Source: Gemmatimonadota bacterium
GTDB taxonomy: Bacteria > Gemmatimonadota > Gemmatimonadetes > Longimicrobiales > Gaopeijiaceae
Assembly: GCA_022826025.1 (NCBI GenBank)
Contig: JAJDVR010000170.1
Coordinates: forward strand, 1-43,668
Direction: 5' to 3'
Length of the DNA: 43,668 nt
The notes under the pieces were generated by a model. That model was given only the letters and a program-made list of their open reading frames with translations. It was not told the origin of the DNA and ran no database searches. This document shows positions 29,426 to 42,898 of the stretch, in pieces. How positions within the stretch are numbered: the first letter of the stretch is position 1; every line of letters begins with the position of its first letter. The translations under genes and the position numbers were made by a program.

Positions 29426-29547
29426 TTCGGGTGAGGGCGGCTGGAGTTGCCGTCACGCGCCCGCGCGCATCGGCTTCAAGCGGCCACGCGGCCTCGATTC
29501 CGCGCACCAGGCTACCTCCATTTCACATCCACAAGACCGAAAGACAC

Positions 29548-30549
29548 ATGACCACCTCAACCAGACACGACATCGCCGCCATCCAGGAAAAGATCCGGGA
29601 GGAGAGCGCCTTCGTGGATCGCCTGCTGGATGAAGTCGGGCGCGTGATCGTAGGCCAGCGCTACATGGTGGAGCGGATGCTGATCGGCCTGCTCGCCGAC
29701 GGGCACGTGCTGCTGGAGGGTGTCCCCGGGCTCGCCAAGACGCTGACCGTGCGCACGCTGGCGGCGGCCATCCGCACCTCCTTCCAGCGCATCCAGTTCA
29801 CGCCCGACCTCCTGCCCGCGGATCTCATCGGGACCCTCGTCTTCGACCCGAAGGAGTCGGACTTCAAAACCCGCAAGGGTCCCATCTTCGCGAACGTCAT
29901 CCTCGCCGACGAGATCAACCGCTCGCCGGCCAAGGTCCAGGCCGCGCTACTGGAGGCGATGCAGGAGCACACCGTAACCATCGGGCAGAACACCTTCTCG
30001 CTTGACGATCCCTTCCTCGTACTCGCGACCCAGAATCCCATTGAGCAGGAGGGAACCTATCCTCTCCCCGAGGCCCAGGTGGACCGCTTCATGCTGAAGC
30101 TGGCGGTGGGTTATCCCGACAAGGATGAGGAGCTCGAGATCATGCGGCGCATGGCGACGGGGCCGGCGCGCGACGTGACTCCGGTGGTGAGCCCGGACGA
30201 GATCCTGCGGGCGCGCGACGCCGTCGAGATGGTGTACATGGACCCCCAGATCGAGCGCTACATCGTCGACCTGGTGTTCGCGACCCGCGATCCGGCCGCC
30301 TGCGGGCTGGACGACCTGGTGCAGCTCATCGCCTACGGGGGTTCGCCCCGGGCGAGCATCTGCCTGGCGAAGACGGCGCGGGCGCATGCCTTCCTGCGCC
30401 GGCGCGGCTACGTGACCCCGGAGGACGTGCGCTCGGTGGGGATGGACGTGCTCCGCCACCGGGTGCTGGTCACCTACGAGGCGGAGGCCGAGGAGGTCAC
30501 CCCGGAAGACGTGGTGACCCGCGTTCTGGACAACATCGAGGTTCCGTGA
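29548..30549 (+). CDS. MoxR-family AAA+ ATPase (Bat operon)
   Basis: The 333-residue ATPase has Walker A GVPGLAKT (58-65), Walker B VILADEINRSP (D121, E122) and sensor LVLATQNPIEQEGTYPLPEAQVDRF, all characteristic of MoxR proper, the subgroup that pairs with DUF58 and VWA Bat proteins. Length is normal. It is first in an eight-gene operon and stops 4 bp before the DUF58 gene. MoxR proteins are chaperone-like; they are thought to load or assemble metal/envelope complexes with VWA partners. No strong ribosome site is visible at 29548. Confidence 0.95.
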   Translation: MTTSTRHDIAAIQEKIREESAFVDRLLDEVGRVIVGQRYMVERMLIGLLADGHVLLEGVPGLAKTLTVRTLAAAIRTSFQRIQFTPDLLPADLIGTLVFDPKESDFKTRKGPIFANVILADEINRSPAKVQAALLEAMQEHTVTIGQNTFSLDDPFLVLATQNPIEQEGTYPLPEAQVDRFMLKLAVGYPDKDEELEIMRRMATGPARDVTPVVSPDEILRARDAVEMVYMDPQIERYIVDLVFATRDPAACGLDDLVQLIAYGGSPRASICLAKTARAHAFLRRRGYVTPEDVRSVGMDVLRHRVLVTYEAEAEEVTPEDVVTRVLDNIEVP

Positions 30550-30553
30550 CGGA

Positions 30554-31429
30554 ATGATCGCGAGCGAAATCCTTCGCAAGGTCAGGCGCATCGAGATCAC
30601 CACGCGGGGTCTCGTGAACGAGGTCTTCTCGGGCGAATACCATTCCGTCTTCCAGGGACGGGGGATGAATTTCGCGGAGGTGCGCGAGTACCAGTACGGG
30701 GACGACATTCGCAGCATCGACTGGAACGTGACGGCGCGCACCGGCACCCCGTTCGTAAAGGTGTTCGAGGAGGAGCGCGAGCTCACCGTCATGCTGGTGG
30801 TGGATGTGAGCGCCTCGGGCAACTTCGGGACCCGGATGCGCATGAAGGGCGATGTGGCGGTGGAGATCTGCGCCCTGCTGGCCTTCAGCGCGATCAAGAA
30901 CAACGACAAGGTCGGGCTGATCCTCTTCAGCGACCGGATCGAGAAGTTCGTGCCCCCGCGCAAGGGGCGCCGGCATGTGCTGCGGGTTCTGCGCGAGCTT
31001 CTGTACCACCGGCCGGACCGGAGCGGCACCGACATCCGGATGGCCCTCGAGTACCTGACGCGCGTGACCCGGCGGCGGGCGGTGGTGTTCCTCGTGTCGG
31101 ACTTCCTGGCGGGCGGGTTCGGCCGCGCCCTCAACATCGCCGGCCGGCGCCACGACACCATAGCGGTGCGGGTGCGCGACCGGCGCGAGACGGAACTGCC
31201 TCCCATCGGGCTGGTTGAGTTCGAGGACGCCGAGACGGGCGAGCGGTTCGTGGTGAACACCTCCGACCGAAGCTTCCGGGAGGCCTTCGGGCGCGACCGG
31301 GCCGCGGTCGAAGAGGAGCTCGAGCGGACGCTCCGGCACGGCAAGGTTGATCTGATCGACGTGCGCGTGGACCGGCCCTACGTGCGGCCGCTGATGCGCT
31401 TCTTCAAGGAGCGGGAGCGGCGGCGATGA
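30554..31429 (+). CDS. DUF58 protein, VWA-like Bat operon component
   Basis: The 291-residue protein opens MIASEILRKVRRIEITTRGLVNEVFSGEYHS, then GRGMNFAEVREYQYGDDIRSIDWNVTAR, the DUF58 hallmark, followed by a VWA-like fold (LMLVVDVSASG, where Ala-Ser follow the Asp as in this family; LVSDFLAGG). DUF58 proteins accompany MoxR and work with BatA/BatB. No membrane segment is seen, so it is cytosolic. Its stop overlaps the next start (ATGATG). Confidence 0.93.
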   Translation: MIASEILRKVRRIEITTRGLVNEVFSGEYHSVFQGRGMNFAEVREYQYGDDIRSIDWNVTARTGTPFVKVFEEERELTVMLVVDVSASGNFGTRMRMKGDVAVEICALLAFSAIKNNDKVGLILFSDRIEKFVPPRKGRRHVLRVLRELLYHRPDRSGTDIRMALEYLTRVTRRRAVVFLVSDFLAGGFGRALNIAGRRHDTIAVRVRDRRETELPPIGLVEFEDAETGERFVVNTSDRSFREAFGRDRAAVEEELERTLRHGKVDLIDVRVDRPYVRPLMRFFKERERRR

Positions 31430-32499
31430 TGTCGATTTGGGCGAGGCCGGGCGCCGCGATGACGTCCTGGCAACGATGTGCCGGTGCGGCCCGGGTCGCC
31501 TGCCGTGCCGCGTTGATGGCGCTTTTCGCCGCCTGTGCCCCCAACCCGGCCGGTGCCCAGGAACTCCCCGCACCCCCCTCCCTCCGAGTCGCGGTCGACA
31601 CCACCACGACCACGGTGGGCGGGCGCCTCCACCTGACCGTCGCCGTCGAGCACGCGCCCGACGCGACCGTTCAGTGGCCCGACTCGCTCAACCTGGCGCC
31701 CTTCGAGGTGCTCGGAGCGGTGGTGAACCCAACAACCGTGGCCGACGGACACGCCATGACCACGGCCGTGCTCACCCTCACCGCCTTCGAGCTGGGCGAG
31801 CTGGAGATCCCGAGCTTCACGGTGGGCGTGACCTCCCCCGCCGGCGTGACCGAACTGGTCACCGACCCCTTCGGCATCGCGGTGGTGAGCGTCGGACTCG
31901 ACGAAGGTCAGGACATCCGCGACATCCGGGGTCCGCTGTCCATCCCGCGCAGCATGCTGGTGATCGGCCTCTGGGTCCTCGCGCTCGCGCTGGCCGCGGG
32001 CGGCGGATGGTGGCTGGCGCGCCGCGCCCGGCAGCGCACGATCGACGAGGGCCCCGTCATCGAGGCCCCCCCGCGCCCCGCGCACGAGGTCGCTTACGAG
32101 GAACTCGACTGGCTCGAAACGTCGGGGCTCCTGGGACAGGGCCGCATCAAGGAGTACTACATCGAAGTGTCGGACATCATCCGGCGCTACCTGGAAGGGC
32201 GTTACACCATTCGGGCGCTGGAGATGACCAGCCGGGAGGTGCTTCAGGAGTTGGAGAACATGGACGTCGCCTGGGACGTCCACGATCGTTTCGCGGCCTT
32301 CCTGGAGCACTGCGATCTGGTCAAGTTCGCAAGACACCGCCCGAGCTCGACCGCGTGTGCCCTGATCGTCCCGGACGCGCGCGCCCTGGTGGGCGCGACA
32401 TTGCCGCCCCCGGAACCCGATCCGGAGGAGGAGCGGGAAGAGGAAGGCGACGGCTCGCGGCCGGACGCCGCTCCGCTTGCGGGCGTGGAGGCGGCATGA
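31426..32499 (+). CDS. BatD/DUF4381-like membrane protein
   Basis: The 357-residue protein has a signal-like hydrophobic start (about 18-45, ending AGAQ), a beta-rich BatD-like extracytoplasmic domain (RVAVDTTTTTVGGRLHLTV, LGELEIPSFTVGV), one membrane helix near 180-205 (SMLVIGLWVLALALAAGGGWW) and a cytosolic helical region. The latter (DWLETSGLLGQGRIKEYYIEVSDIIRRYLEGRY...MTSREVLQEL) is like the DUF4381 segment in Bat operons. It overlaps DUF58 and BatA by 4 bp each. The acidic tail (PDPEEEREEEGDG) is unusual. Confidence 0.85.
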   Translation: MMSIWARPGAAMTSWQRCAGAARVACRAALMALFAACAPNPAGAQELPAPPSLRVAVDTTTTTVGGRLHLTVAVEHAPDATVQWPDSLNLAPFEVLGAVVNPTTVADGHAMTTAVLTLTAFELGELEIPSFTVGVTSPAGVTELVTDPFGIAVVSVGLDEGQDIRDIRGPLSIPRSMLVIGLWVLALALAAGGGWWLARRARQRTIDEGPVIEAPPRPAHEVAYEELDWLETSGLLGQGRIKEYYIEVSDIIRRYLEGRYTIRALEMTSREVLQELENMDVAWDVHDRFAAFLEHCDLVKFARHRPSSTACALIVPDARALVGATLPPPEPDPEEEREEEGDGSRPDAAPLAGVEAA

Positions 32500-33257
32500 A
32501 CTTCGAGTTCGCGGACCCGGGCTTCCTCTGGCTGCTGCTCGCAGTACCCGCGCTCGCGTGGTGGTATTTCGGGCGGCGCCGGCTGAGGGGCGGCTCGCTG
32601 GTCTACTCGGACCTCGCGGCGGTGCGTCGCGCGGATATCCGACGGGGCGGCCGTTGGCGTCACGTGCTGCCTGTGCTGCGCCTGCTGGCCGTGGCCGCGC
32701 TGGTGGTGGCCTTCGCCCGGCCCCGGGCCGGCGTCACCAGCGAGAACGTCCTCACCGAGGGGATCGACATCGTGCTGGTGCTGGACATATCCGGCTCCAT
32801 GCTGGCCGAGGACCTCGAGCCCAACCGCATCGACGCCGCCAAGCAGGTCGCGGCCGACTTCGTCTCCGGGCGTCGGAACGACCGCATCGGCCTGGTGGTC
32901 TTCGCGGGTCAGGCCTTCACCCAGGTGCCGCTTACCCTCGACTACGGCGTCGTACGCGAGCTGATGGACGAGTTGGACGTGGGCATGGTAGAGGACGGTA
33001 CCGCGGTGGGTATGGGGCTCGCCACCGCGGTCAAGCGGCTGAACGAGAGCGTCGCCGACTCGAAGGTCGTGGTGCTGCTCACCGACGGCCGCAACAACCG
33101 AGGCGAGATCGACCCGCTCACCGCTGCGCAGATGGCACAGGCCCTGGGCGTGCGGGTGTATACGATCGGGGCGGGATCGCGTGGCACCGCCCGCGTGCCG
33201 GTGGACGACCCGCTGCTCGGCCGGCGCTACGCGACCGTGCGCGTGGACGTGGACTAG
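32496..33257 (+). CDS. batA: BatA, cut short by an in-frame amber codon
   Basis: The 253-residue product has two N-terminal membrane helices (about 8-25 and 53-72) and a VWA domain with MIDAS DISGSM (D97), the conserved T/G (GTAVGMGLATAV) and D (LLTDGRNN). It stops at TAG (33255-33257) after VRVDVD. The same frame then continues cleanly with ETLAEVASTTGGRYF... to a second TAG at 33486, the usual end of BatA. The expected codon is Glu (GAG), one base from TAG. Premature stop, read-through, or a sequence error are the options; see the findings. Confidence 0.88.
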   Translation: MNFEFADPGFLWLLLAVPALAWWYFGRRRLRGGSLVYSDLAAVRRADIRRGGRWRHVLPVLRLLAVAALVVAFARPRAGVTSENVLTEGIDIVLVLDISGSMLAEDLEPNRIDAAKQVAADFVSGRRNDRIGLVVFAGQAFTQVPLTLDYGVVRELMDELDVGMVEDGTAVGMGLATAVKRLNESVADSKVVVLLTDGRNNRGEIDPLTAAQMAQALGVRVYTIGAGSRGTARVPVDDPLLGRRYATVRVDVD

Positions 33258-33488
33258 GAGACCCTGGCCGAGGTCGCGAGCACCACCGGCGGGCGCTACT
33301 TCCGGGCCACCGACACCGAGAGCTTGGCGAGCATCTACCAGGAAATCGACGAGCTGGAAACCACGGAAATCGAGGTGCAGAACTTCACGCGCTATACCGA
33401 GCTCTTCCACTTCCCCCTCGCGGCCGGGCTCCTGCTTCTGTTGATGGAGGCCGCGCTCGCGAACACGCTCCTGCGCAAGCTCCCGTAG
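33258..33488 (+). pseudogene. BatA C-terminal remnant after the amber codon
   Basis: The frame reads 76 codons: ETLAEVASTTGGRYFRATD, then SLASIYQEIDELETTEIEV, then a closing membrane helix (FHFPLAAGLLLLLMEAAL) and LRKLP before TAG 33486-33488. These are the last strand/helix of the VWA domain and the third membrane segment of BatA. Codon use and amino acids look fully conserved, with no further lesion, so the stop is recent or tolerated. Confidence 0.8.
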
Positions 33489-33494
33489 CAGCCA

Positions 33495-34541
33495 ATGTTC
33501 AGATTCGGATCCGTCGAACTGCTCTTCGGGCTGCTCCTGGTGCCCCTGCTGGCGCTGCTGCTCCGGCATGGCGCGCGCGCGCGGCGGCAGGCGCTGGACC
33601 GATTCGGGGACAGCGAGCTGGTGCAGCGGCTGGCCGCGTCGGTGCACCGGCGCAACCGGACGCTCCGCACCCTGCTCTTCGTCGGGACCGTCGGCCTGCT
33701 GCTCACCGCGCTGGCACGTCCCCAGTTCGGCACCCGGGTGGAGACGGTGCGGCGCGAAGGCAAGGACGTGGTGGTGGCGCTGGACCTGTCCCGTTCCATG
33801 CTCGCCGAGGACATCGCGCCCAATCGGCTGCAGCGCGCCAAGCTGGAGATCCTGCGCCTGGTGGACCGGCTCGAGGGCGACCGCGTCGGGCTGGTGGCCT
33901 TTGCGGGCCAGGCCTTCGTGCAGAGCCCGCTGACCACCGACTACGCTGCCACCCGGCTCTTCCTGAGCGCCATGGACGTGGACCTGGTGCCGGTGCAGGG
34001 GACGAATCTGGGGGAGGCGATGAACGTCGGGCTCGACCTCTTCGACGAGGAGGTGCGCGAGTTCCGGGTACTTCTGATCGTGACCGACGGGGAGGACCAC
34101 GAAGGCGAGGTCGACGATGCCGTTCGGCGCGCCAACGATGCCGCCGTGCGCGTCTTCACCGTGGGCATCGGATCTCCCGACGGGGTCCCGATCCCCGAGT
34201 TCGACGACGCGGGCAACAGGCAGGGCTTCCAGCGGGACGCCGACGGCAACGTCGTGACCACGCGCCTGGACGAGGCTACCTTGCGGCGAATCGCCGACGC
34301 GACCGGGGGAGGCTTCTACCTCAGCACCCCGCAGAGCGTTGAACTCGACGCCCTCATCGACGAGATGAGCGCGGTGGGCACGCGCGAGATCGATGCCCGC
34401 GAGATCGCCCGGTTCGAGGAGCAGTTTCAGCTTTTCCTGGGAGCGGCCATCCTGCTGCTGCTGATCGAACCGCTGCTTCCGGCGCGGAGAAGAGGCGAGG
34501 CCGGGAGACAGGCTGCCCGGTGGACGGGAGGTGCCGAATGA
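33495..34541 (+). CDS. batB: BatB VWA membrane protein
   Basis: The 348-residue protein has N-terminal membrane helices (about 8-24 and 58-72), a VWA domain with DLSRSM (D97), the conserved threonine (QGTNLGEAM) and LIVTDGEDHEGE. A C-terminal membrane helix (FLGAAILLLLIEPLLPA) ends in a basic tail. It stands 6 bp after the BatA terminal stop. It is intact, so the MIDAS function of the Bat complex could be partly kept even if BatA is truncated. Stop overlaps the BatC start (ATGA). Confidence 0.93.
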   Translation: MFRFGSVELLFGLLLVPLLALLLRHGARARRQALDRFGDSELVQRLAASVHRRNRTLRTLLFVGTVGLLLTALARPQFGTRVETVRREGKDVVVALDLSRSMLAEDIAPNRLQRAKLEILRLVDRLEGDRVGLVAFAGQAFVQSPLTTDYAATRLFLSAMDVDLVPVQGTNLGEAMNVGLDLFDEEVREFRVLLIVTDGEDHEGEVDDAVRRANDAAVRVFTVGIGSPDGVPIPEFDDAGNRQGFQRDADGNVVTTRLDEATLRRIADATGGGFYLSTPQSVELDALIDEMSAVGTREIDAREIARFEEQFQLFLGAAILLLLIEPLLPARRRGEAGRQAARWTGGAE

Positions 34542-35260
34542 GAAACCGCCTGGTGTTCCTGCTGATGGCTGGTGCGCTGCTCGTGCCCGGTGCGGTGAGC
34601 GCCCAGCGCGGTCTTGTGGAGGAGGCCAACCGCCTCTACGCCGAGGGCCGCTTCGCCGAGGCGCACGAAATGTACCTGGAGGCGCTGCGCGAGAATCCGG
34701 GTTCGCCGCTGATCCGCTTCAACGAGGGCAACGCGCTCTACCGGAATCAGGAATTCGAGCGCGCCCTCGAGGCGTACCGGGACGCCATCGAGAGCGGCGA
34801 CACGGCACTGGCCGAGGGCGCATGGTACAACCTGGGCAACTCGCTCTTCCGCCAGCAGCAGCTCGACGGGAGCCTCGAGGCGTACAAGCAGGCATTGCGC
34901 ATCAACCCCGGAGATCTCGACGCCAAGCACAATCTCGAGCGCGTGCTGGAGCAGATCGAGGAGCAGGAGAATCAGCAGCAACAGCAGAACCGGAATGAGG
35001 ACGATCAGGACCAGGAGAACCAGGACCAGCAGCAGCCGCCGCCGGAGGGCGATCCGGAACCGGATGAGCAGGAGCAGGAGCAGCCGCCGCCGGAGAACGA
35101 CGAGCAGGAGCAGGATCAGCCGGCCCAGCCGCCGCCCGGGCAGATGACACCCGAAGAGGCCGAGCGTCTGCTCCAGGCCATCCAGGAAGATCCTGACGAG
35201 GTCGATCGCCCGCCACGGGCGGACTCGCTCGGGCGGAGACCGCGCAAGAACTGGCGATGA
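34538..35260 (+). CDS. batC: BatC TPR protein with acidic Gln/Glu/Pro tail
   Basis: From the overlapping ATG at 34538 the 240-residue protein has a signal peptide (1-23, ending AVSAQ) and three TPR repeats (about 24-135: LVEEANRLYAEGRFAEAHEMY, FNEGNALYRNQEFERALEAY, WYNLGNSLFRQQQLDGSLEAY). A low-complexity tail follows (about 140-210: Q, E, D, N and P, with PPPE repeats). It ends with EEAERLLQAIQEDPDEVDRP. The layout matches BatC. The tail is probably an unstructured spacer in the periplasm or at the membrane. Confidence 0.9.
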   Translation: MRNRLVFLLMAGALLVPGAVSAQRGLVEEANRLYAEGRFAEAHEMYLEALRENPGSPLIRFNEGNALYRNQEFERALEAYRDAIESGDTALAEGAWYNLGNSLFRQQQLDGSLEAYKQALRINPGDLDAKHNLERVLEQIEEQENQQQQQNRNEDDQDQENQDQQQPPPEGDPEPDEQEQEQPPPENDEQEQDQPAQPPPGQMTPEEAERLLQAIQEDPDEVDRPPRADSLGRRPRKNWR

Positions 35261-37074
35261 GGATCTCGTCCGCGATGGCGCTTCTCGTCTTGGCGCTTGC
35301 CGCAGGCCCGACAGACGCCACCGCCCAGCAGGTCTCCGCGCGCGCCTACCTGAGCGGCAACCAGGTGGGCGTCGGGCAGCAGTTCGTGCTGAACGTGGAG
35401 GTGTCCGGAACCCAGGGCGTGGACCAGGACCCCGAACTGCCGGACCTGAGCTCCTTCTCGGTGTACCTGGGGAGCGGCTCCTCCAGTTCGATGCAGATGT
35501 CGGGCGGGCGCACCACCGTCAGCCTCACCATCCAGTACCGGTTCCAGGCCACCCGGGCGGGTACCTTCACCATCGACCCCGTCGAGGTTCGCGCGGCGGG
35601 AAGCGCCTTCGCCACCGAACCCCTCACCCTGACCGTTTCCGACGCACCTGTCCCCCAGGGGCCCTCGGCGGGAGCGGGCGCGGGAGACCGCGGCATCGCG
35701 CCCGAGGACCTCTTCGTGGAGGCGGTGCCGAGCCGCCGGCAGGTATACGAGAATCAGCCCGTGGTGGTCGACTACCGGATCTTCACGCGCGTGAACGTGA
35801 GTTCGTACAGCATCACCCGGCTTCCGCCGGCCACGGGCTTCTGGGTGGAGGAGTATCCGCAGGTGCGCGAGCCGGTGATCGGTCAGACCGTCCGCGACGG
35901 GATGCAGTACACCACCGCGACCATCCGCAAGGTGGCGCTCTTCCCGACCGGGTCGGGCGCGCGCACCCTCGAGCCGCTGGGCATCGAGGCGCAGGTGCGG
36001 GTGCGCCGCCGCTCGGCCTTCGACCCGTTCGAGGACTTCTTCGGGCGTGGGTCGCTGCTGAACTCGACCATCTCGACCGCGGCGGCCTCGCGGGCGGTGG
36101 AGATCGAGGTGCTGCCGCTGCCCGGCGGGCGCCCGGAGAACTTCACCGGCTTCGTGGGCGACCTGGACGTTACCGCCGCCCTCGACCGCGACAGCGTGCA
36201 GGTCAGCGATGCGGTCACCCTGACCGTGGTGGTCGCGGGGAGCGGCAACCTGCGCATGCTGGCCGAGCCCGAGGTGGAGGTCCCGCCCGGCTTCGAGGCC
36301 TTCCCGCCCGAGGTGACCGAGCGCGTCGACCGCACCGACGCGGGGGTGAGCGGGACGCGCACCTACGAGTACGTGCTGGTGCCGCGGGTGCCGGGGGTGG
36401 GGGCGATCGCGCCCGTCGAGCTGGCTTACTTCGATCCAGGAAGCGGGACGTACGAGGTCGCGGCCAGCGGGGCGCTCGCGGTGGAGGTCACCGGGGTGGC
36501 GGCAGACGGGCCCCTGGGGACGGGCCGGGTGCGCGCGGGGGTGGAAGAACTGCGCACCGACATCCGCTTCATCCAGCTCGGGAGCCCGGCCCTGGTGCTG
36601 GCGAACCGGACGCTGTTCGCGCACCCGCTCTTCTGGATCACGCTGCTCGTCCCGCTGGCGGCGGTGGGTGGAGCGGCGGGGCTGCGCCGGCACCGCGACC
36701 GGTTGCACGGCGATGTCGCGTACGCCCGTTCGCGGCGCGCAGCGAAGGTGGCGCGGAAGCGCCTCGCGGAAGCGCGCAAGCTGGCGGACGGGCAGGACGT
36801 GCGCGCCTTTTACGCGGAGGCCGGGCGTGCGCTCGAAGGCTTCCTGGCCGACAAGCTCAACATTGCCGCCGCCGGCATGATCCGGGACGAGGTGCGCGAC
36901 CGACTGGCCGTCCTGGGCGTCGCCACCGAGGCGGCCGAGCCCTATCTGGAGTGCCTGGAGGAGTGCGACCGTCAGCGCTTCGCCCCGCCGACCGCGTCGG
37001 AGGAGGAGCGCGCGCGCTTCCTTGGCCGGGTGGAGGAGGCGATGGCTGCGATGGCGGAGCACCTTGCCCGATGA
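35257..37074 (+). CDS. batD: BatD
   Basis: The 605-residue protein has a signal peptide (1-24, ending ATAQ), tandem extracytoplasmic beta domains of the BatD type (VSARAYLSGNQVGVGQQFVLNVEV; RTTVSLTIQYRFQATRAGTF; PVVVDYRIFTRVNV; FTGFVGDLDVTAALDRDSVQVSDAVTLTVVV), a membrane helix (LFWITLLVPLAAVGGAAGL, about 460-478) and a helical cytosolic region (EARKLADGQDVRAFYAEAGRALEGFLADKL). Overlaps BatC and BatE by 4 bp. It is predicted to connect the envelope side with the MoxR/VWA components. Confidence 0.92.
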   Translation: MRISSAMALLVLALAAGPTDATAQQVSARAYLSGNQVGVGQQFVLNVEVSGTQGVDQDPELPDLSSFSVYLGSGSSSSMQMSGGRTTVSLTIQYRFQATRAGTFTIDPVEVRAAGSAFATEPLTLTVSDAPVPQGPSAGAGAGDRGIAPEDLFVEAVPSRRQVYENQPVVVDYRIFTRVNVSSYSITRLPPATGFWVEEYPQVREPVIGQTVRDGMQYTTATIRKVALFPTGSGARTLEPLGIEAQVRVRRRSAFDPFEDFFGRGSLLNSTISTAAASRAVEIEVLPLPGGRPENFTGFVGDLDVTAALDRDSVQVSDAVTLTVVVAGSGNLRMLAEPEVEVPPGFEAFPPEVTERVDRTDAGVSGTRTYEYVLVPRVPGVGAIAPVELAYFDPGSGTYEVAASGALAVEVTGVAADGPLGTGRVRAGVEELRTDIRFIQLGSPALVLANRTLFAHPLFWITLLVPLAAVGGAAGLRRHRDRLHGDVAYARSRRAAKVARKRLAEARKLADGQDVRAFYAEAGRALEGFLADKLNIAAAGMIRDEVRDRLAVLGVATEAAEPYLECLEECDRQRFAPPTASEEERARFLGRVEEAMAAMAEHLAR

Positions 37075-37829
37075 GCGCGCGGACGATCCTTCCGGCAGCC
37101 CTCCTCCTGCTGGCATTCCAGCCCGCTCCTCTCCACGCCCAGGACGAACTCTTCGAGGAGGGCAACCGCCTCTACCAGCAGGAGGACTACCAGGGCGCGC
37201 TCGACAACTACCTGCGCATCCGCGAGGCGGGGTTCGAGAGCCCGGGCCTCTACTACAACATCGGCAACGCCTACTTCAAGGCGAACGAGCTGGGCCGGGC
37301 CATCCTCTACTACGAGCGGGCCCGGCGCCTCGCCCCCGGTGACGCCGACATCCTCGCGAACCTGGAGCTGGCCCGTTCGCTGGGGGCGGACGAGATCGTC
37401 CCGCTGCCGCGCTTCTGGCTCTTCCGGGTCGGGTCGTGGTGGATGAACCTCTTCCCGCGCTCACTCCTCATCGGACTGACGGCCGCGGGCTACCTGATGG
37501 CGGCCGGGGCGGTGGTGGTGCTGGTACTGCGGCCGGGAGCGCTGTCGTGGGCGCGTCGCGTCGCGGTCGCGGGGGGGATCCTGGTACTGCTGCTGGGCGC
37601 CACCCTGGCCGTCCGCGAGACCGGGTTGGGGCAGGCCCGCCATGGCGTCGTCCTCGTGGCCGAGGTGGGCGTCCAGAGCGCTCCTTCCGACGACCCCGCG
37701 CTACAGCTCTTCGTCATCCACGAAGGCACCCGGGTGCGCGTGGACCGGAGCTCCGAGGAGTGGCTGGAGGTGGTGCTCGACGACGGCAAGGTGGGCTGGG
37801 TGCGCGCAGAGGTGCTGGAGGAGGTGTGA
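37071..37829 (+). CDS. batE: BatE TPR-SH3 protein
   Basis: The 252-residue protein has a signal peptide (1-24, ending LHAQ), TPR repeats (about 28-105: EEGNRLYQQEDYQGALDNYLRI; YNIGNAYFKANELGRAILYYERARRL), two membrane helices (about 133-153 and 164-182), and a C-terminal bacterial SH3 domain (VGVQSAPSDDPALQLFVIHEGTRVRVD...WLEVVLDDGKVGWVRAEVLEEV). This is the standard BatE layout. It is last in the ATGA-linked operon. Confidence 0.92.
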   Translation: MSARTILPAALLLLAFQPAPLHAQDELFEEGNRLYQQEDYQGALDNYLRIREAGFESPGLYYNIGNAYFKANELGRAILYYERARRLAPGDADILANLELARSLGADEIVPLPRFWLFRVGSWWMNLFPRSLLIGLTAAGYLMAAGAVVVLVLRPGALSWARRVAVAGGILVLLLGATLAVRETGLGQARHGVVLVAEVGVQSAPSDDPALQLFVIHEGTRVRVDRSSEEWLEVVLDDGKVGWVRAEVLEEV

Positions 37830-37939
37830 GGGCAACCTGATCCGGCAGAATCAGCGGGAGGCGGGAACGAAGTTGGGGGACGCGTCGTAACCAACGGACA
37901 CCCGGGACGCGCGGCCCCACCATGGAGCGTCAGGACGAG

Positions 37940-38833
37940 ATGGATCCAAACCGTTGCCGACGAAGGCGGAGTCGCTGGCCGGGGGGCCTGCGGGACGCCC
38001 TGGGGCGTTCCATTCTGGTGGCGACGCTCGGCCTCCTGTCGGCATCGGGGGTGCATGCGCAGGAGGAAGACCGGGCCCCGATACGAGTCACCCTCCGGGG
38101 GATTGTCCTGGACGAAGTCATGGGAACGCCGGTCGCGGGAGCCGCGGTTTACCTGGAGGACGAGGACTACGGCGCGCTCACCGACTCACGAGGCGCGTTC
38201 CGCATCGAGGGCGTCCCCGCCGGCTCGCAGACCGTCGTTGCAACCCAGTTCGGGTACTGGGAGGTCGCGGCAGATGTCGAGGTGCCCGAGGCCGGGACCA
38301 TCATGGAGATCGACCTCAAGCCCAGGCCGATCCTGCTCGACGGCGTCACTGCGGTGACTGACAACATCGACACCATGGTCAGGCGCCTTCGGACGCGTCG
38401 GCAGTCCCTACCGTACCAGACCCGGGCGTTCGACCAGGAACGGCTGCTGCGCAGCCCCCAGCCCGACGTCTTCGAGTTCCTGTGGCGGGAGACCGGCCTT
38501 GAGCGGCGCCCCTGTCCGATCACAGTCGGCGTGACCTTTGTGGGATGGCGGCCGGCGCGAGGTCTCGGGGCATGGGACCTTCCCTCCCAGGCGCCCGGGG
38601 CGCTGTCGAGTCACTGCATCTGGAGGCGCGGCCAGGTGATAAGCCCGAGAGTGTATATCGACGAAATGCCGGTCGCCCGCGGCCTGGACGCGCTCAGAAA
38701 CTATCCGACGACGCAGATCTACGCGTTGGAGGTCTATTCCCAGGGCGCCCAGATCCGGGCCTACACCTACAACTTCATGCAGCGCATGGCTGCAAACCCG
38801 GAGGCGCTGGTCGCCCTCAGCGTGTGGCCGTGA
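37940..38833 (+). CDS. Exported carboxypeptidase-regulatory/plug-like protein, paralog 1
   Basis: I prefer the ATG at 37940, which has AGGA 4 bp upstream, over 37922. The 297-residue protein has a basic N-terminus and signal (ending GVHAQ), then a CarboxypepD_reg domain (RVTLRGIVLDEVMGTPVAGAAVYLEDEDYGALTDSRGAFRIEGV). A basic linker (RRLRTRRQSL) follows, then FDQERLLRS. The C-terminal segment holds PCP...HCIWRRG, SPRVYIDEMPVARGLDALRNYP and QIYALEVYSQGAQIRAYTYNFMQRMA. It resembles a TonB plug without a barrel. Two further copies lie directly downstream, and the stop overlaps copy 2. Confidence 0.8.
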   Translation: MDPNRCRRRRSRWPGGLRDALGRSILVATLGLLSASGVHAQEEDRAPIRVTLRGIVLDEVMGTPVAGAAVYLEDEDYGALTDSRGAFRIEGVPAGSQTVVATQFGYWEVAADVEVPEAGTIMEIDLKPRPILLDGVTAVTDNIDTMVRRLRTRRQSLPYQTRAFDQERLLRSPQPDVFEFLWRETGLERRPCPITVGVTFVGWRPARGLGAWDLPSQAPGALSSHCIWRRGQVISPRVYIDEMPVARGLDALRNYPTTQIYALEVYSQGAQIRAYTYNFMQRMAANPEALVALSVWP

Positions 38834-39675
38834 TGAGGACCGACGCCCTGCCCCTTCGTCTCCTCCTGGCGATCGCCTGCGTTCTTCTCCCCGCTTCCGT
38901 CGATGCGCAGGAGGCCGAGCCCTCGTCCATCCGCGTGCCGCTGCACGGTGTCGTCTACGATGCCCTCACGGGAACCGTCGTCCCGGGAGCTGCCGTGTAC
39001 CTGAATGGCGAGGGGTACGGTGTGCTGTCGGACTCAACGGGGGTCTTCCGGTTCGCGGACGTTTTCCCGGGGCCCCAACTCATCGCCGCAGTCCAGTTCG
39101 GATACGAGGAGACGGCGGCGCCGGTCGAGGTGCCGGAGGAAGGCGCCTTCATCGAGATCGAACTCACGCCCCAGCCCATCCTGCTCGACGGCGTCACCGC
39201 GGTGGTCGACAACATCAGCACGATGGAGAGGCGCATGCGCTCGCGGCGGCGGTCTGCTGCGTCGCAGACGCGGGCGTTCAACCAGGAACGGCTGTTGCGC
39301 AGCGCGTCGTCCAACGCTCTTGAGTTCCTGCGTATGGAAACCCGCTACTTTCCCGTCCCGTGTCCCTCGGGCATCGGCATTTTCGGAACGGGGAACTCCA
39401 CCCGGAACCTCGGCTGGCACGGAATCTCCCGGCTGACCGGCGCAATGTCGACGAACTGCATCATCCGCCGCGGAAGAACGATCAGCCCGAAGGTGTACAT
39501 CGATGAAGTGCCGGCCATCGGCGGCCTGGACGAACTCGAGAGCTACCCCACGGCGCAGATCTACACGCTGGAGGTGTTTTCCCAGGGCGCCGAGATCCGG
39601 GCCTATACCTACGGCTTCATGCAGCGCATGGCCGAGAGACCCATGGCGCTGATTCCCATCAACCTCTGGCCGTAG
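38833..39675 (+). CDS. Exported carboxypeptidase-regulatory/plug-like protein, paralog 2
   Basis: The ATG at 38833 shares its A with the TGA of paralog 1. The 280-residue protein has a signal (ending SVDAQ), a regulatory beta domain (VPLHGVVYDALTGTVVPGAAVYLNGEGYGVLSDSTGVFRF), a basic linker (MERRMRSRRRSAASQTR) and FNQERLLRS. The conserved end holds PCPS...NCIIRRGRTISPKVYIDEVPAIGGLDELESYP and QIYTLEVFSQGAEIRAYTYGFMQRMA. Conserved Cys pair spacing is 31 residues here. No barrel follows. It is clearly paralogous to copies 1 and 3. Confidence 0.8.
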   Translation: MRTDALPLRLLLAIACVLLPASVDAQEAEPSSIRVPLHGVVYDALTGTVVPGAAVYLNGEGYGVLSDSTGVFRFADVFPGPQLIAAVQFGYEETAAPVEVPEEGAFIEIELTPQPILLDGVTAVVDNISTMERRMRSRRRSAASQTRAFNQERLLRSASSNALEFLRMETRYFPVPCPSGIGIFGTGNSTRNLGWHGISRLTGAMSTNCIIRRGRTISPKVYIDEVPAIGGLDELESYPTAQIYTLEVFSQGAEIRAYTYGFMQRMAERPMALIPINLWP

Positions 39676-39689
39676 CGCCTCCATCAACA

Positions 39690-40469
39690 ATGCGAAGAGG
39701 CGGTTCCCAGGCGTTGGTCTGGTGCACCCTGGCCATGGCATCCTCCCTCGGCTTGCCCGCCACGACCGGGGCGCAGGAAGCTGACCGCACGGCTATCCGC
39801 GTGCTGATGCACGGTGTTGTCTACGATGAGCTGACCCGCACTCCGATCCCCGGGGCTGCAGTCCATCTGGAGGAGCAGAACTACGGCGCGCTTACGGACT
39901 CACTTGGCAGGTTCCGGTTCGAGGATGTTGCCGCGCGCTTTGAGGTTCTGGCCGTAGTCCAGTTCGGATACGAGGAGATATCGGCAGCGGTCGAGATGCT
40001 TGTAGACAGCGTCTTCGTCGAGATCGAGCTCACGCCCCGACCGATCCTCCTCGATGGCGTCACGACGGTGGCCGACAACATCAGCACGATGGAGAGGCGT
40101 TTTCGCTCCCGTCGGCGGGCTGTACCGTTTTTCGCGCGCGTGTACGATCAGGAGCGGATGTTGCGGACGGCTTCGGCCAACGCCCTCGAGTTTCTGCGAT
40201 CTCAAGCCTTCGTGCGGATGGTTCCGTGTCCGGCGTTCTGGACCGCATGGCGCTGCGTCCGCAGACGAGGACGCATTGTAAGCCCGCGGGTGTACGTCGA
40301 CGAAATCCCGGCCATTCGCGGACTGGACGAACTCGAGAGTTATCCGCCCTCCCAGATCTACCAGATCGAGGTGTTCTCATACGGCGCGGAAATCCGGGCC
40401 TATACCTATGGCTTCATGCAGCGCATGGCCGAGAAACCCAGGGCGCTCATGCCCATTGGCTGGCAGTGA
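39690..40469 (+). CDS. Exported carboxypeptidase-regulatory/plug-like protein, paralog 3
   Basis: The 259-residue protein starts 14 bp after copy 2. Signal (ending TGAQ), regulatory domain (VLMHGVVYDELTRTPIPGAAVHLEEQNYGALTDSLGRFRF), basic linker (MERRFRSRRRAVPF) and QERMLRT. The terminal part holds PCPAFWTAWRCVRRRGRIVSPRVYVDEIPAIRGLDELESYP and QIYQIEVFSYGAEIRAYTYGFMQRMA. The segment between the two Cys is only 8 residues, versus 31-33 in the others. The third copy is therefore diverged mainly in this loop. Confidence 0.8.
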   Translation: MRRGGSQALVWCTLAMASSLGLPATTGAQEADRTAIRVLMHGVVYDELTRTPIPGAAVHLEEQNYGALTDSLGRFRFEDVAARFEVLAVVQFGYEEISAAVEMLVDSVFVEIELTPRPILLDGVTTVADNISTMERRFRSRRRAVPFFARVYDQERMLRTASANALEFLRSQAFVRMVPCPAFWTAWRCVRRRGRIVSPRVYVDEIPAIRGLDELESYPPSQIYQIEVFSYGAEIRAYTYGFMQRMAEKPRALMPIGWQ

Positions 40470-40627: not shown

Positions 40628-40969
40628 ATGTCATCTCAGCCGACCGAGTCGCCGCAGCGGCGCCGAGTCGAACTTCGCCGGCGCAACCGCAAGCTCGGGC
40701 GCGTGCTGCTCGTCATCGGGCTGATCGTGCTTTCGCTGCCGCTGGTGACGAACCTGGTGCGCGACCCCGCCGCCGAGCGACCCGAGGATCCGCCCTCGGA
40801 GATGGTGCGCAGGGCGGGTCTGGCCGAGGGGCGGGGCGACATCGAACTTGCCACCCAACTCTACGAGCGCGTGCTGGAGTTGGAGATGGGCGAGTCGCCG
40901 CGGGATACGCTGAAGGCCCTGGTCCGCGCGTCCCGGGCCGGTCTGGCACGCCTCGCGGAACTTCCGTGA
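40628..40969 (+). CDS. Small single-pass membrane protein with TPR-like helices
   Basis: The 113-residue protein starts MSSQPTESPQRRRVELRRRNRKLGR, a strongly basic segment, then one membrane helix (VLLVIGLIVLSLPLVTNLV, about 26-44). The rest is two or three helices with TPR-like spacing (MVRRAGLAEGRGDIELATQLYERVLELEMGESPRDTLKALVRASRAGLARLAEL). Positive-inside topology places the TPR-like part outside the cytosol. No known family; similar small proteins often sit near tRNA or translation genes, but nothing here says so. Confidence 0.62.
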   Translation: MSSQPTESPQRRRVELRRRNRKLGRVLLVIGLIVLSLPLVTNLVRDPAAERPEDPPSEMVRRAGLAEGRGDIELATQLYERVLELEMGESPRDTLKALVRASRAGLARLAELP

Positions 40970-41064
40970 CCGCGGCCGGGCCTGCGCGCGGGCCCGCCGA
41001 GGCTCCGGCCTTCCCGCATCGGCCCGTCTGAGGCACACACAACCTTGATCCTGAGCACACCGAC

Positions 41065-42051
41065 ATGACCAACACCATGGCCATCCGCATCCACGGGCTC
41101 GGGGGCCCGGATATGATGCGCTGGGAACAAGTGCCCCTGTCCGACCCTGGGCCGGGCGAGGTGCTCGTCCGGCAGGAGGCGGTCGGGCTCAACTTCATCG
41201 ACACTTATCACCGGAGCGGGCTCTACCCGGTACCATCGTTGCCGGCCGTGCTCGGGATGGAGGCGGCCGGCGTGGTCGAGGCGGCGGGGCCGGCGACCAC
41301 GGACGGGCCGACCTTCCGGTCCGGCGACCGGGTCGCGTACGGGAGCGTTCTGGGCGGCTATTGCGAGCGGCGCGTGATGCCCGCCGAGCAGTTGGTCGCG
41401 ATGCCCGACGGCGTCGACTACGAGGCCGCCGCGGCAGCCATGCTGAAGGGCATGACCGCGTGGTATCTCTGCCGCCGTACCTACCGGGTGCGCGCCGGCG
41501 AGACCGTGCTCGTGCACGCGGCCGCGGGCGGAGTCGGCACGATCCTCGGCCAGTGGTGCAAGGCGCTGGGCGCCACCGTGATCGGCACGGCCGGGAGCCC
41601 CGAAAAGGGCCGCCTGGCGCGGGCGCACGGCACCGACCACGTCATCCTCTACAAGGAAGAGGATTTCGTCGAACGGGTGCGCGAAATCACCGGCGGACGG
41701 GGTGTCCCGGTAGTCTTCGACGGGGTCGGCAAGGCCACCTTCGAGGGCTCGATGGAATGCCTGTCCCGCTTCGGCATGATGATCACCTTCGGCAACGCGT
41801 CGGGCCCCGTGCCTCCACTAAATCTGCTGCGCCTGAGCGCGAAGGGGCTCAGCGTGGCCCGTCCCTCGCTCAAGCCCTACATCGAGCGGCGCGAGGACCT
41901 GGAAGAAGCCTCCGGCGAACTGCTCGGACACATTCAGGCCGGCCGCATCGGGCTCACCATAGGTCAGCGCTTCCCTCTTTCCGCAGCCGCCGAGGCCCAT
42001 CGCGCGCTGGAGTCGCGGGATACGCAGGGATGCACCATTCTGGTTCCGTGA
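41065..42051 (+). CDS. Quinone oxidoreductase, zeta-crystallin-type MDR
   Basis: The 328-residue protein is a medium-chain dehydrogenase/reductase of the QorA type, without the zinc-binding Cys/His set. The substrate-side N-terminal domain carries GEVLVRQEAVGLNFIDTYHRSGLYPVPSLPAVLGMEAAGVVEA. The NADPH-binding Rossmann part has VLVHAAAGGVGTILGQWCKALGATVIGTAGSPEK. It has no signal peptide. It reduces quinones or enones with NADPH in the cytosol. It is first in a run with the creatininase-family and ALDH genes, 31 bp before the former. Confidence 0.92.
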   Translation: MTNTMAIRIHGLGGPDMMRWEQVPLSDPGPGEVLVRQEAVGLNFIDTYHRSGLYPVPSLPAVLGMEAAGVVEAAGPATTDGPTFRSGDRVAYGSVLGGYCERRVMPAEQLVAMPDGVDYEAAAAAMLKGMTAWYLCRRTYRVRAGETVLVHAAAGGVGTILGQWCKALGATVIGTAGSPEKGRLARAHGTDHVILYKEEDFVERVREITGGRGVPVVFDGVGKATFEGSMECLSRFGMMITFGNASGPVPPLNLLRLSAKGLSVARPSLKPYIERREDLEEASGELLGHIQAGRIGLTIGQRFPLSAAAEAHRALESRDTQGCTILVP

Positions 42052-42082
42052 TGACACCCCTCACGCGCACTCGGGAGGATCC

Positions 42083-42898
42083 ATGATTCGCACGCTCGCT
42101 TCCGCCGCTCTCGCCGTGCTCGTGACCGCGAGCGCCGCCGCCGCACAGCGCCCCAACACCGTCTTCCTCGACGAGCTGACCTGGACCGAGGTCCGGGCCG
42201 CCATCGGCGAGGGGGTCACCACCATCATCGTGCCCACCGCGGGGACCGAGCAGAACGGACCCCACATGGTGCTCGGCAAACACAAGTTCATCATCAACCA
42301 CGCGTCGGACCTGATCGCGCGCGAGCTGGGCAACGCGCTGGTGGCACCGGTCATCGCCTATGTTCCCGAAGGCGCCATCGACGGGCCCGACGGGCCCACC
42401 GGACACATGCGCTACGCCGGGGCGATCACCCTTCCCAACGAGCACTTCATGAAGCTGCTCGAATACGCGGCCCGGAGCCTCGAGGTGCATGGCTTCACCG
42501 ACATCGTCTTCATCGGCGACAGCGGCGGGAACCAGAACGGCATGCGCACGGTGTCGGAGATGCTCAATGAAGAGTGGGCGGCCGCGGGGAGGCAGGGCCG
42601 CGTCCACTTCGTCGGCGACTACTATTCCGGCAACGGCTTCCGCGACTGGCTCATGGAGGAACACGGCTACGACGCGGCCACCATTGGCGGGCACGCCGGC
42701 ATCAGCGACACGTCCCAGCTTCTCTACATTGCGCCCGAGCACATCCGCCAGGGAGAACTGGCGCCGGGAGGCGGGTACGAAGGCAGCGGCGTATCCGGCG
42801 ATCCCACCAAGGCTTCCGTCGTTTACGGCCGAATGGGCATCCAGCTCAAGGTTGAGGCAGCGGTGCGCCAGATCCGCGAGCTGACGCAGGGGCGATGA
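42083..42898 (+). CDS. Exported creatininase-family protein, divergent active site
   Basis: GGAGG 5 bp before the ATG and a signal peptide (1-22, ending AAAQ) define this 271-residue protein. The fold motifs are aligned, but the metal ligands differ from creatininase: GTEQNGPHMVLGKH replaces the usual E-Q-H-G-P-H..G-x-D, GDSGGNQN replaces NGHGGN/NGHYEN, and GGHAGISDTS is near the usual HAGE-ETS. The Glu and later His residues are kept while others become Asn, His and Ser. It overlaps the ALDH by 4 bp. Substrate unknown; a periplasmic amidohydrolase is possible. Confidence 0.85.
   Translation: MIRTLASAALAVLVTASAAAAQRPNTVFLDELTWTEVRAAIGEGVTTIIVPTAGTEQNGPHMVLGKHKFIINHASDLIARELGNALVAPVIAYVPEGAIDGPDGPTGHMRYAGAITLPNEHFMKLLEYAARSLEVHGFTDIVFIGDSGGNQNGMRTVSEMLNEEWAAAGRQGRVHFVGDYYSGNGFRDWLMEEHGYDAATIGGHAGISDTSQLLYIAPEHIRQGELAPGGGYEGSGVSGDPTKASVVYGRMGIQLKVEAAVRQIRELTQGR

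Follow-up and report, generated by a model that had tools for sequence, protein, structure and literature searches.

Tandem exported proteins of Gemmatimonadota that join a CarboxypepD_reg domain to a barrel-less TonB-receptor plug

Three tandem genes and their surroundings

The window, i.e. the whole 43,668-nt stretch of DNA analysed here, derives from an uncultured Gemmatimonadota bacterium and carries, within positions 37922-40469, three complete open reading frames on the same strand that encode small exported paralogs, hereafter A, B and C (Table 1). The ATG of gene B overlaps the stop codon of gene A by 1 nt and a gap of 14 nt separates gene B from gene C, so the three genes are likely read as one transcript. 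A longer listed open reading frame that begins at 38545 was rejected as the start of gene B. Our promoter scan gave no promoter and no terminator clearly above chance.

Judged by eye, each of the three N-termini resembles a type I signal peptide ending in A-QE, and a weak lipobox-like match in B falls inside the hydrophobic core. All three proteins contain the motifs SP[RK]VY[IV]DE.P and E[IV][YF]S.GA.IRAYTY.FMQRMA and a pair of cysteines that brackets a loop. The initial annotation had described three adjacent exported paralogs with VY[IV]DE and IRAYTY motifs and with a Cys pair around 33, 31 or 8 residues, lying after a Bat operon; the frames, signal-peptide-like N-termini and motifs are all present as claimed, the Cys spacings are exact in A, B and C respectively, and a complete-looking Bat operon precedes gene A.

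Table 1. Features at the locus, with positions in the window.
Feature	Positions	Strand	Support or remark
Upstream Bat operon: MoxR, DUF58, BatD-like, VWA, VWA/BatA, TPR, BatD, TPR-SH3	29545..37829	+	conserved neighbour within genus
Gene A, exported CarboxypepD_reg + barrel-less plug protein	37940..38833	+	297 aa; alternative in-frame ATG 37922
CarboxypepD_reg (NTE-like) domain of A, residues 51-136	38090..38347	+	PF13620 E=4e-14, PF13715 E=3.6e-12
Cys-bracketed loop of A, Cys192 to Cys226, 33 residues between	38513..38617	+	sequence
Gene B, exported CarboxypepD_reg + barrel-less plug protein	38833..39675	+	280 aa; AlphaFold2 model pLDDT 83
CarboxypepD_reg domain of B, residues 38-122	38944..39198	+	PF13715 E=1.3e-9; VIA Z 13.2 to SusC NTE 9hfj
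Cys-bracketed loop of B, Cys177 to Cys209, 31 residues between	39361..39459	+	sequence
Gene C, exported CarboxypepD_reg + barrel-less plug protein	39690..40469	+	259 aa
CarboxypepD_reg domain of C, residues 41-124	39810..40061	+	PF13715 E=6.7e-11
Linker helix + plug domain of C, residues 119-259 (modelled alone)	40044..40466	+	AlphaFold2 pLDDT 90.2, pTM 0.83
Cys-bracketed loop of C, Cys180 to Cys189, 8 residues between	40227..40256	+	sequence
Downstream: 113-aa protein, zinc-type dehydrogenase, creatininase family protein	40628..42898	+	conserved neighbours

The first VWA gene of the Bat operon contains a single in-frame TAG (33255-33257, RVDVD*ETLAEVAS) inside an otherwise open frame, which is either a nonsense change or an assembly error. 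An ATPase gene (VVLTGMRQVGKTTLA) lies between the Bat operon and A in three genomes of the genus (L065:2654-3868, L070:2577-3815 and L069:2504-3811) and is absent from the window. A search for shared neighbours of the family recovered synteny inside a single genus; across genera, the sole recurring type was 6-bladed-propeller-like, at five loci. Lipoproteins of this type, whose genes are frequent in any case, are encoded at L073, L078, L082, L085 and L092 and count only as a candidate shared neighbour. No recurrent Ton-system neighbour was seen beside the family loci.

Existing resources label A-C as generic CarboxypepD_reg proteins at best: searches of NCBIfam gave no specific family and those of PHROGs no match. 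A literature search that covered mainly open-access papers found no description of such a family.

Domains and fold of A, B and C

A carboxypeptidase-regulatory domain had been proposed for all three proteins, and CarboxypepD_reg / CarbopepD_reg_2 matches lie above the curated Pfam cut-offs in each; a PF13620/PF13715 domain stands directly before the plug in 37/37 aligned relatives. Its fold is transthyretin-like, with VIA Z-scores of 13.2 to the SusC NTE 9hfj (SusCdex) and 10.3 to 6ytc. Pfam searches of A-C gave no STN domain (PF07660) at E up to 10 and no TonB_C domain (PF03544). After the NTE-like domain, an invariant L-x-G (mostly L-[DE]-G) occupies the TonB-box position, with Gly where SusC-type boxes commonly have Glu; Gly is also found at that position in some barrel-bearing receptors of the phylum (LEGITI).

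Pfam matched its Plug model (PF07715) to A-C below cut-off (best 12.4 bits, E 0.23, in C), so the case for plug homology rests on profiles, fold and relatives, among them a family member of another genus in which Plug lies above the cut-off (E=3.6e-6). When the family profile was aligned by hhalign with ten receptor plugs of the phylum, the score was 43.6, against at most 17.7 in 60 column shuffles and 11.3 for the reversed profile, and the alignment places C-V-x-x-RG on the receptor IRG and VYIDE on VYIDG. Because a Foldseek search of the PDB with the full-length model (of B) recovered the first domain only, among the matches listed, the plug of C was modelled alone, using AlphaFold2 with 27 sequences. 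All 50 of the 50 PDB matches listed for this isolated plug are TonB-dependent transporters; CirA (2.3e-4) and BtuB (8.5e-4) are the best, and ChuA, FyuA, Fiu, FhuA and RagA are also present. Structural alignment with VIA-align gave moderate Z-scores (6.7 to Fiu, 6.3 to FyuA, 6.3 and 6.0 to two SusC proteins), but since all listed Foldseek matches agree and the sequence evidence is independent, we regard the assignment as firm: judged from the model and the profiles, the C-terminal segment is a true plug, homologous to those of TonB receptors. The TonB-plug-like segment of the initial annotation is accordingly recovered as a predicted plug fold, where a structure without that fold was the outcome that could have spoken against it. 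Seventeen residues of the C-terminal domain are invariant in the family. The plug's two conserved basic positions fare differently, that of C-x-x-RG being kept in 36/37 and that before G252 being Arg in 14/37.

No barrel (PF00593) was matched by Pfam in A-C. The frames stop 0-5 residues past the plug segment in nearly all family members, and a barrel continuation was found at 0/35 of the loci from a scan of 84,980 species genomes (see below). The lack of a barrel first noted for A-C extends in this way to the examined family members, and the segment was not seen to be routinely attached to complete barrels. What A-C, as Gemmatimonadota paralogs, retain of an Oar/SusC-type TonB-dependent transporter is its N-terminal half, and their chains stop at the point where its barrel would start. 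Relative to a transporter plug, DG is replaced by an invariant DE, the GPAAxxLYGxxAxxG stretch of some 12 residues that connects the last two plug strands is missing, leaving a tight hairpin (G-x-x-IRAYT), and a conserved helix (FMxRxA) after the last strand closes the plug domain, followed by a short tail.

Both cysteines are invariant in 37 aligned relatives and presumably form a disulphide. The loop that they bracket, of 4 to 33 residues in these relatives, sits between a PGV-type strand and the IRG (C-x-x-RG) strand, a placement that we take to correspond to apex A of the FhuA plug, a substrate-facing loop. Loop length goes with ortholog group, being 33 in A (and also in G002_A), 31 in B, 20 in B' (a further copy, see below) and 8 in C. 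Since the length is fixed per paralog and both cysteines are invariant, the loop is paralog-specific and maintained, not hypervariable. Of the earlier suggestion of a duplicated family with a varying loop, the duplication and the differences between paralogs stand, but within each paralog the loop is conserved. Several F-type members (L079, L080, L084, L087, L091, L092 and L097) have a second conserved-looking Cys pair, located in the CarboxypepD_reg domain (..VC.DD .. LLCGI).

Copies in the genus and barrel-less plugs in the phylum

Wherever the region is assembled in the genus, orthologs of A and B are found at the corresponding position with intact frames, so that comparison with relatives shows synteny for these two genes together with a varying copy number: four copies at the locus in G003 (A, B, B' and C), three in the window and two in most genomes. 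A partial B in G005 (L052:4047-4676) and a partial C in G006 (L061:668-850) lie beside intact copies and point to ongoing copy loss. A and C form clean groups in the tree, and B and B' are poorly separated. Given the varying copy number and the mixing of B and B' in the tree, the duplications are probably older and were followed by losses or conversion. Further paralogs are found at other sites in the same genomes, namely D (contig 51 of the window's genome), E (with two CarboxypepD_reg domains) and F.

Within the genus, identity is mostly 82-98% for the flanking genes and mostly 71-90% for A and B. The dN/dS ratios, which are approximate as dS comes from a simple Nei-Gojobori count, are 0.37 for A, 0.23 for B and 0.25 for B'; two genes that flank the locus have 0.16 and 0.07. 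A and B evolve more quickly than these neighbours, yet are under purifying selection.

To follow the family beyond the genus, we scanned the pattern IR[AV]YT[YNH]xFM over the 84,980 species genomes and confirmed matches by tblastn; this gave 35 loci, all in Gemmatimonadota-type genomes. Four public MAG records (L064, L065, L066 and L068) are titled Gammaproteobacteria, yet have the locus and synteny of the Gemmatimonadota genus, and their titles look wrong; judged by sequence, the few records so titled in the scan fall in the window's own genus. A profile search of the phylum matched 199/298 genomes at E up to 1e-12, the weaker matches including ordinary receptors by way of shared front domains. 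At least 18 tandem arrays of 2-5 copies each hold 47 of the 139 strong places listed in 50 genomes, the number of arrays being a lower bound with at most eight candidates scored per genome. On several contigs the matches in G008 and G009 coincide exactly in position and score (for instance at 88891-90626 on C43 and on C66), and the two genomes may be near-duplicates.

Plugs without barrels are not confined to this family. In the complete single-contig genome G067, 12 of the 53 plug matches lie in frames shorter than 500 aa, and 37 of the 38 barrel matches have a plug upstream, the lone exception being a 358-aa frame. Other families of the phylum include exported CarboxypepD_reg-plug proteins without a barrel that end in CG-[VIT]-I-x-[IVL]-W-[ST]-R (e.g. 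CGVIxIWSR), and hhalign relates the plug of the A-C family to that of this type with a profile E=6.3e-11. Given how frequent other barrel-less plugs are in the phylum, they form a wider kind to which the IRAYTxFM family contributes a single branch. The window's genome has 46 plug matches above cut-off.

Barrel-less mini-plugs of G067 are seen at L176 (G067:C1:1419500-1422500), L168, L173, L174 and L175; named by eye, they comprise a plug fragment joined to an M56-type peptidase, mini-plugs that resemble lipoproteins and one that looks membrane-anchored. A TonB C-terminal-like domain follows the plug, again with no barrel, in L128 (G057:C79), L131 (G102:C177), L132 (G121:C54) and L139 (G057:C152), and in L128 and L131 Plug and TonB_C both exceed the Pfam cut-offs (PF03544 E=3.8e-9 and 3.5e-11 respectively).

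Possible roles and known systems

The structure and identity of A-C are well supported, and their function is what we infer. The regulator or ligand-carrier roles and the surface location raised in the initial annotation stay conjectural. Our tentative proposal, held at somewhat under even confidence, is that A-C are soluble plugs whose target is the Ton system, whether TonB or partners coupled to it, and that they work in the periplasm, the location suggested by their N-termini. The NTE-plug unit would bind either the C-terminal domain of TonB or a protein coupled to TonB. The loop specific to each paralog, placed where transporter plugs have their substrate-facing loop, would decide what else binds; given such TonB binding and a loop-set partner, A-C would not themselves transport but would compete with transporters, act as their adaptors or regulate them in a ligand-dependent way. 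In a two-hybrid assay, the TonB1 C-terminal domain is bound by a fragment of Myxococcus Oar that comprises NTE and plug (PMC6434023). The barrel-less CarboxypepD_reg-plug relatives with TonB_C and the L-x-G at the TonB-box position argue for a Ton link; against it, the TonB-box-like segment is degenerate, no Ton-system neighbour recurs and the basic position before G252 is poorly kept. On a larger scale, soluble NTE-plug proteins, spread through the phylum and amplified in tandem with loops that differ by paralog, might compete for or direct TonB among ~40 transporters and so constitute a separate Ton regulatory layer, an extension that we consider doubtful.

The main rival, which could equally fit the present data and which we rate as possible if somewhat unlikely, is that A-C bind ligands independently of Ton, in the periplasm or outside the cell, with a soluble plug scaffold on which the Cys-bracketed loop sets specificity and each paralog takes a different ligand. 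Loops that are fixed in length and sequence per paralog and differ between paralogs would suit such binding proteins, as would the recurrence of tandem paralogs in several genera, the soluble fold with its signal peptide and the invariant Cys pair; however, we found no ligand, pocket or substrate-linked neighbour genes, and no recurrent cross-genus neighbours beyond the 6-bladed-propeller-like type at five loci. Alternatively, A-C could act in trans as plugs that occlude plug-less outer-membrane barrels from other genes. This has a precedent in the soluble FpvAI plug, which complements a plug-less FpvAI barrel in trans (PMC10994204), and in the study of separately made FhuA cork and barrel (Braun et al., 2003, as cited in PMC2615193). 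Such a role needs plug-less barrels, yet in G067 a single barrel match of 38 is without a plug, against 12 plug matches in frames <500 aa, so it is unlikely as a general one; moreover, no orphan barrel was seen adjoining the family loci, the residues that would join the last two plug strands are deleted and the domain is closed off by a helix. We therefore judge trans-acting plugs to be very improbable and, for that reason, favour a soluble partner of TonB or TonB-coupled proteins.

Equally slim is the chance that A-C are envelope partners of the upstream Bat proteins (MoxR/VWA/BatD/TPR): the genes do follow the last Bat gene and precede the 113-aa gene wherever the region is assembled in the genus, but paralogs D, E and F and the members in other genera are located elsewhere, in three genomes the Bat operon and A are set apart by an unrelated ATPase-like gene, and the flanking genes change more slowly than A and B. 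That A-C are decaying, functionless transporter fragments is extremely unlikely, as the varying copy number and the partial B (G005) and C (G006) are outweighed by dN/dS of 0.23-0.37, A and B frames that are intact throughout the genus, the 17 residues that never vary in the C-terminal domain and the presence of the family across genera.

Studies of the plug usually treat it as a channel's gate. In the present bacteria, which depend strongly on TonB-dependent uptake, it forms an independent, exported and duplicated protein. If A-C bind TonB or substrates, the gate would have uses without the channel, and these proteins would provide small soluble plug domains for biochemistry.

Among known systems, the Oar and SusC (RagA) transporters (PF13620/PF13715 + PF07715 + PF00593) have the same NTE-then-plug order as A-C, and the plug fold and the motif positions RG, VY[IV]D and EV coincide. 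A-C are unlike them in having no barrel, DE for DG, a deleted loop before the last strand, the C-terminal helix FMxRxA and the invariant Cys pair. The SusC NTE structures 9hfj and 6ytc have the first-domain fold of A-C, but theirs fronts full transporters. The CGVIxIWSR-type proteins of Gemmatimonadota are, like A-C, exported and composed of the same two domains with no barrel, whereas they keep DG, have a longer plug with Cys near its end and, in several cases, carry TonB_C. Lastly, the soluble FpvAI plug (PMC10994204) is a periplasmic plug without a barrel, as A-C would be if our placement of them is right; in contrast to A-C, it is engineered and works with its own plug-less barrel.
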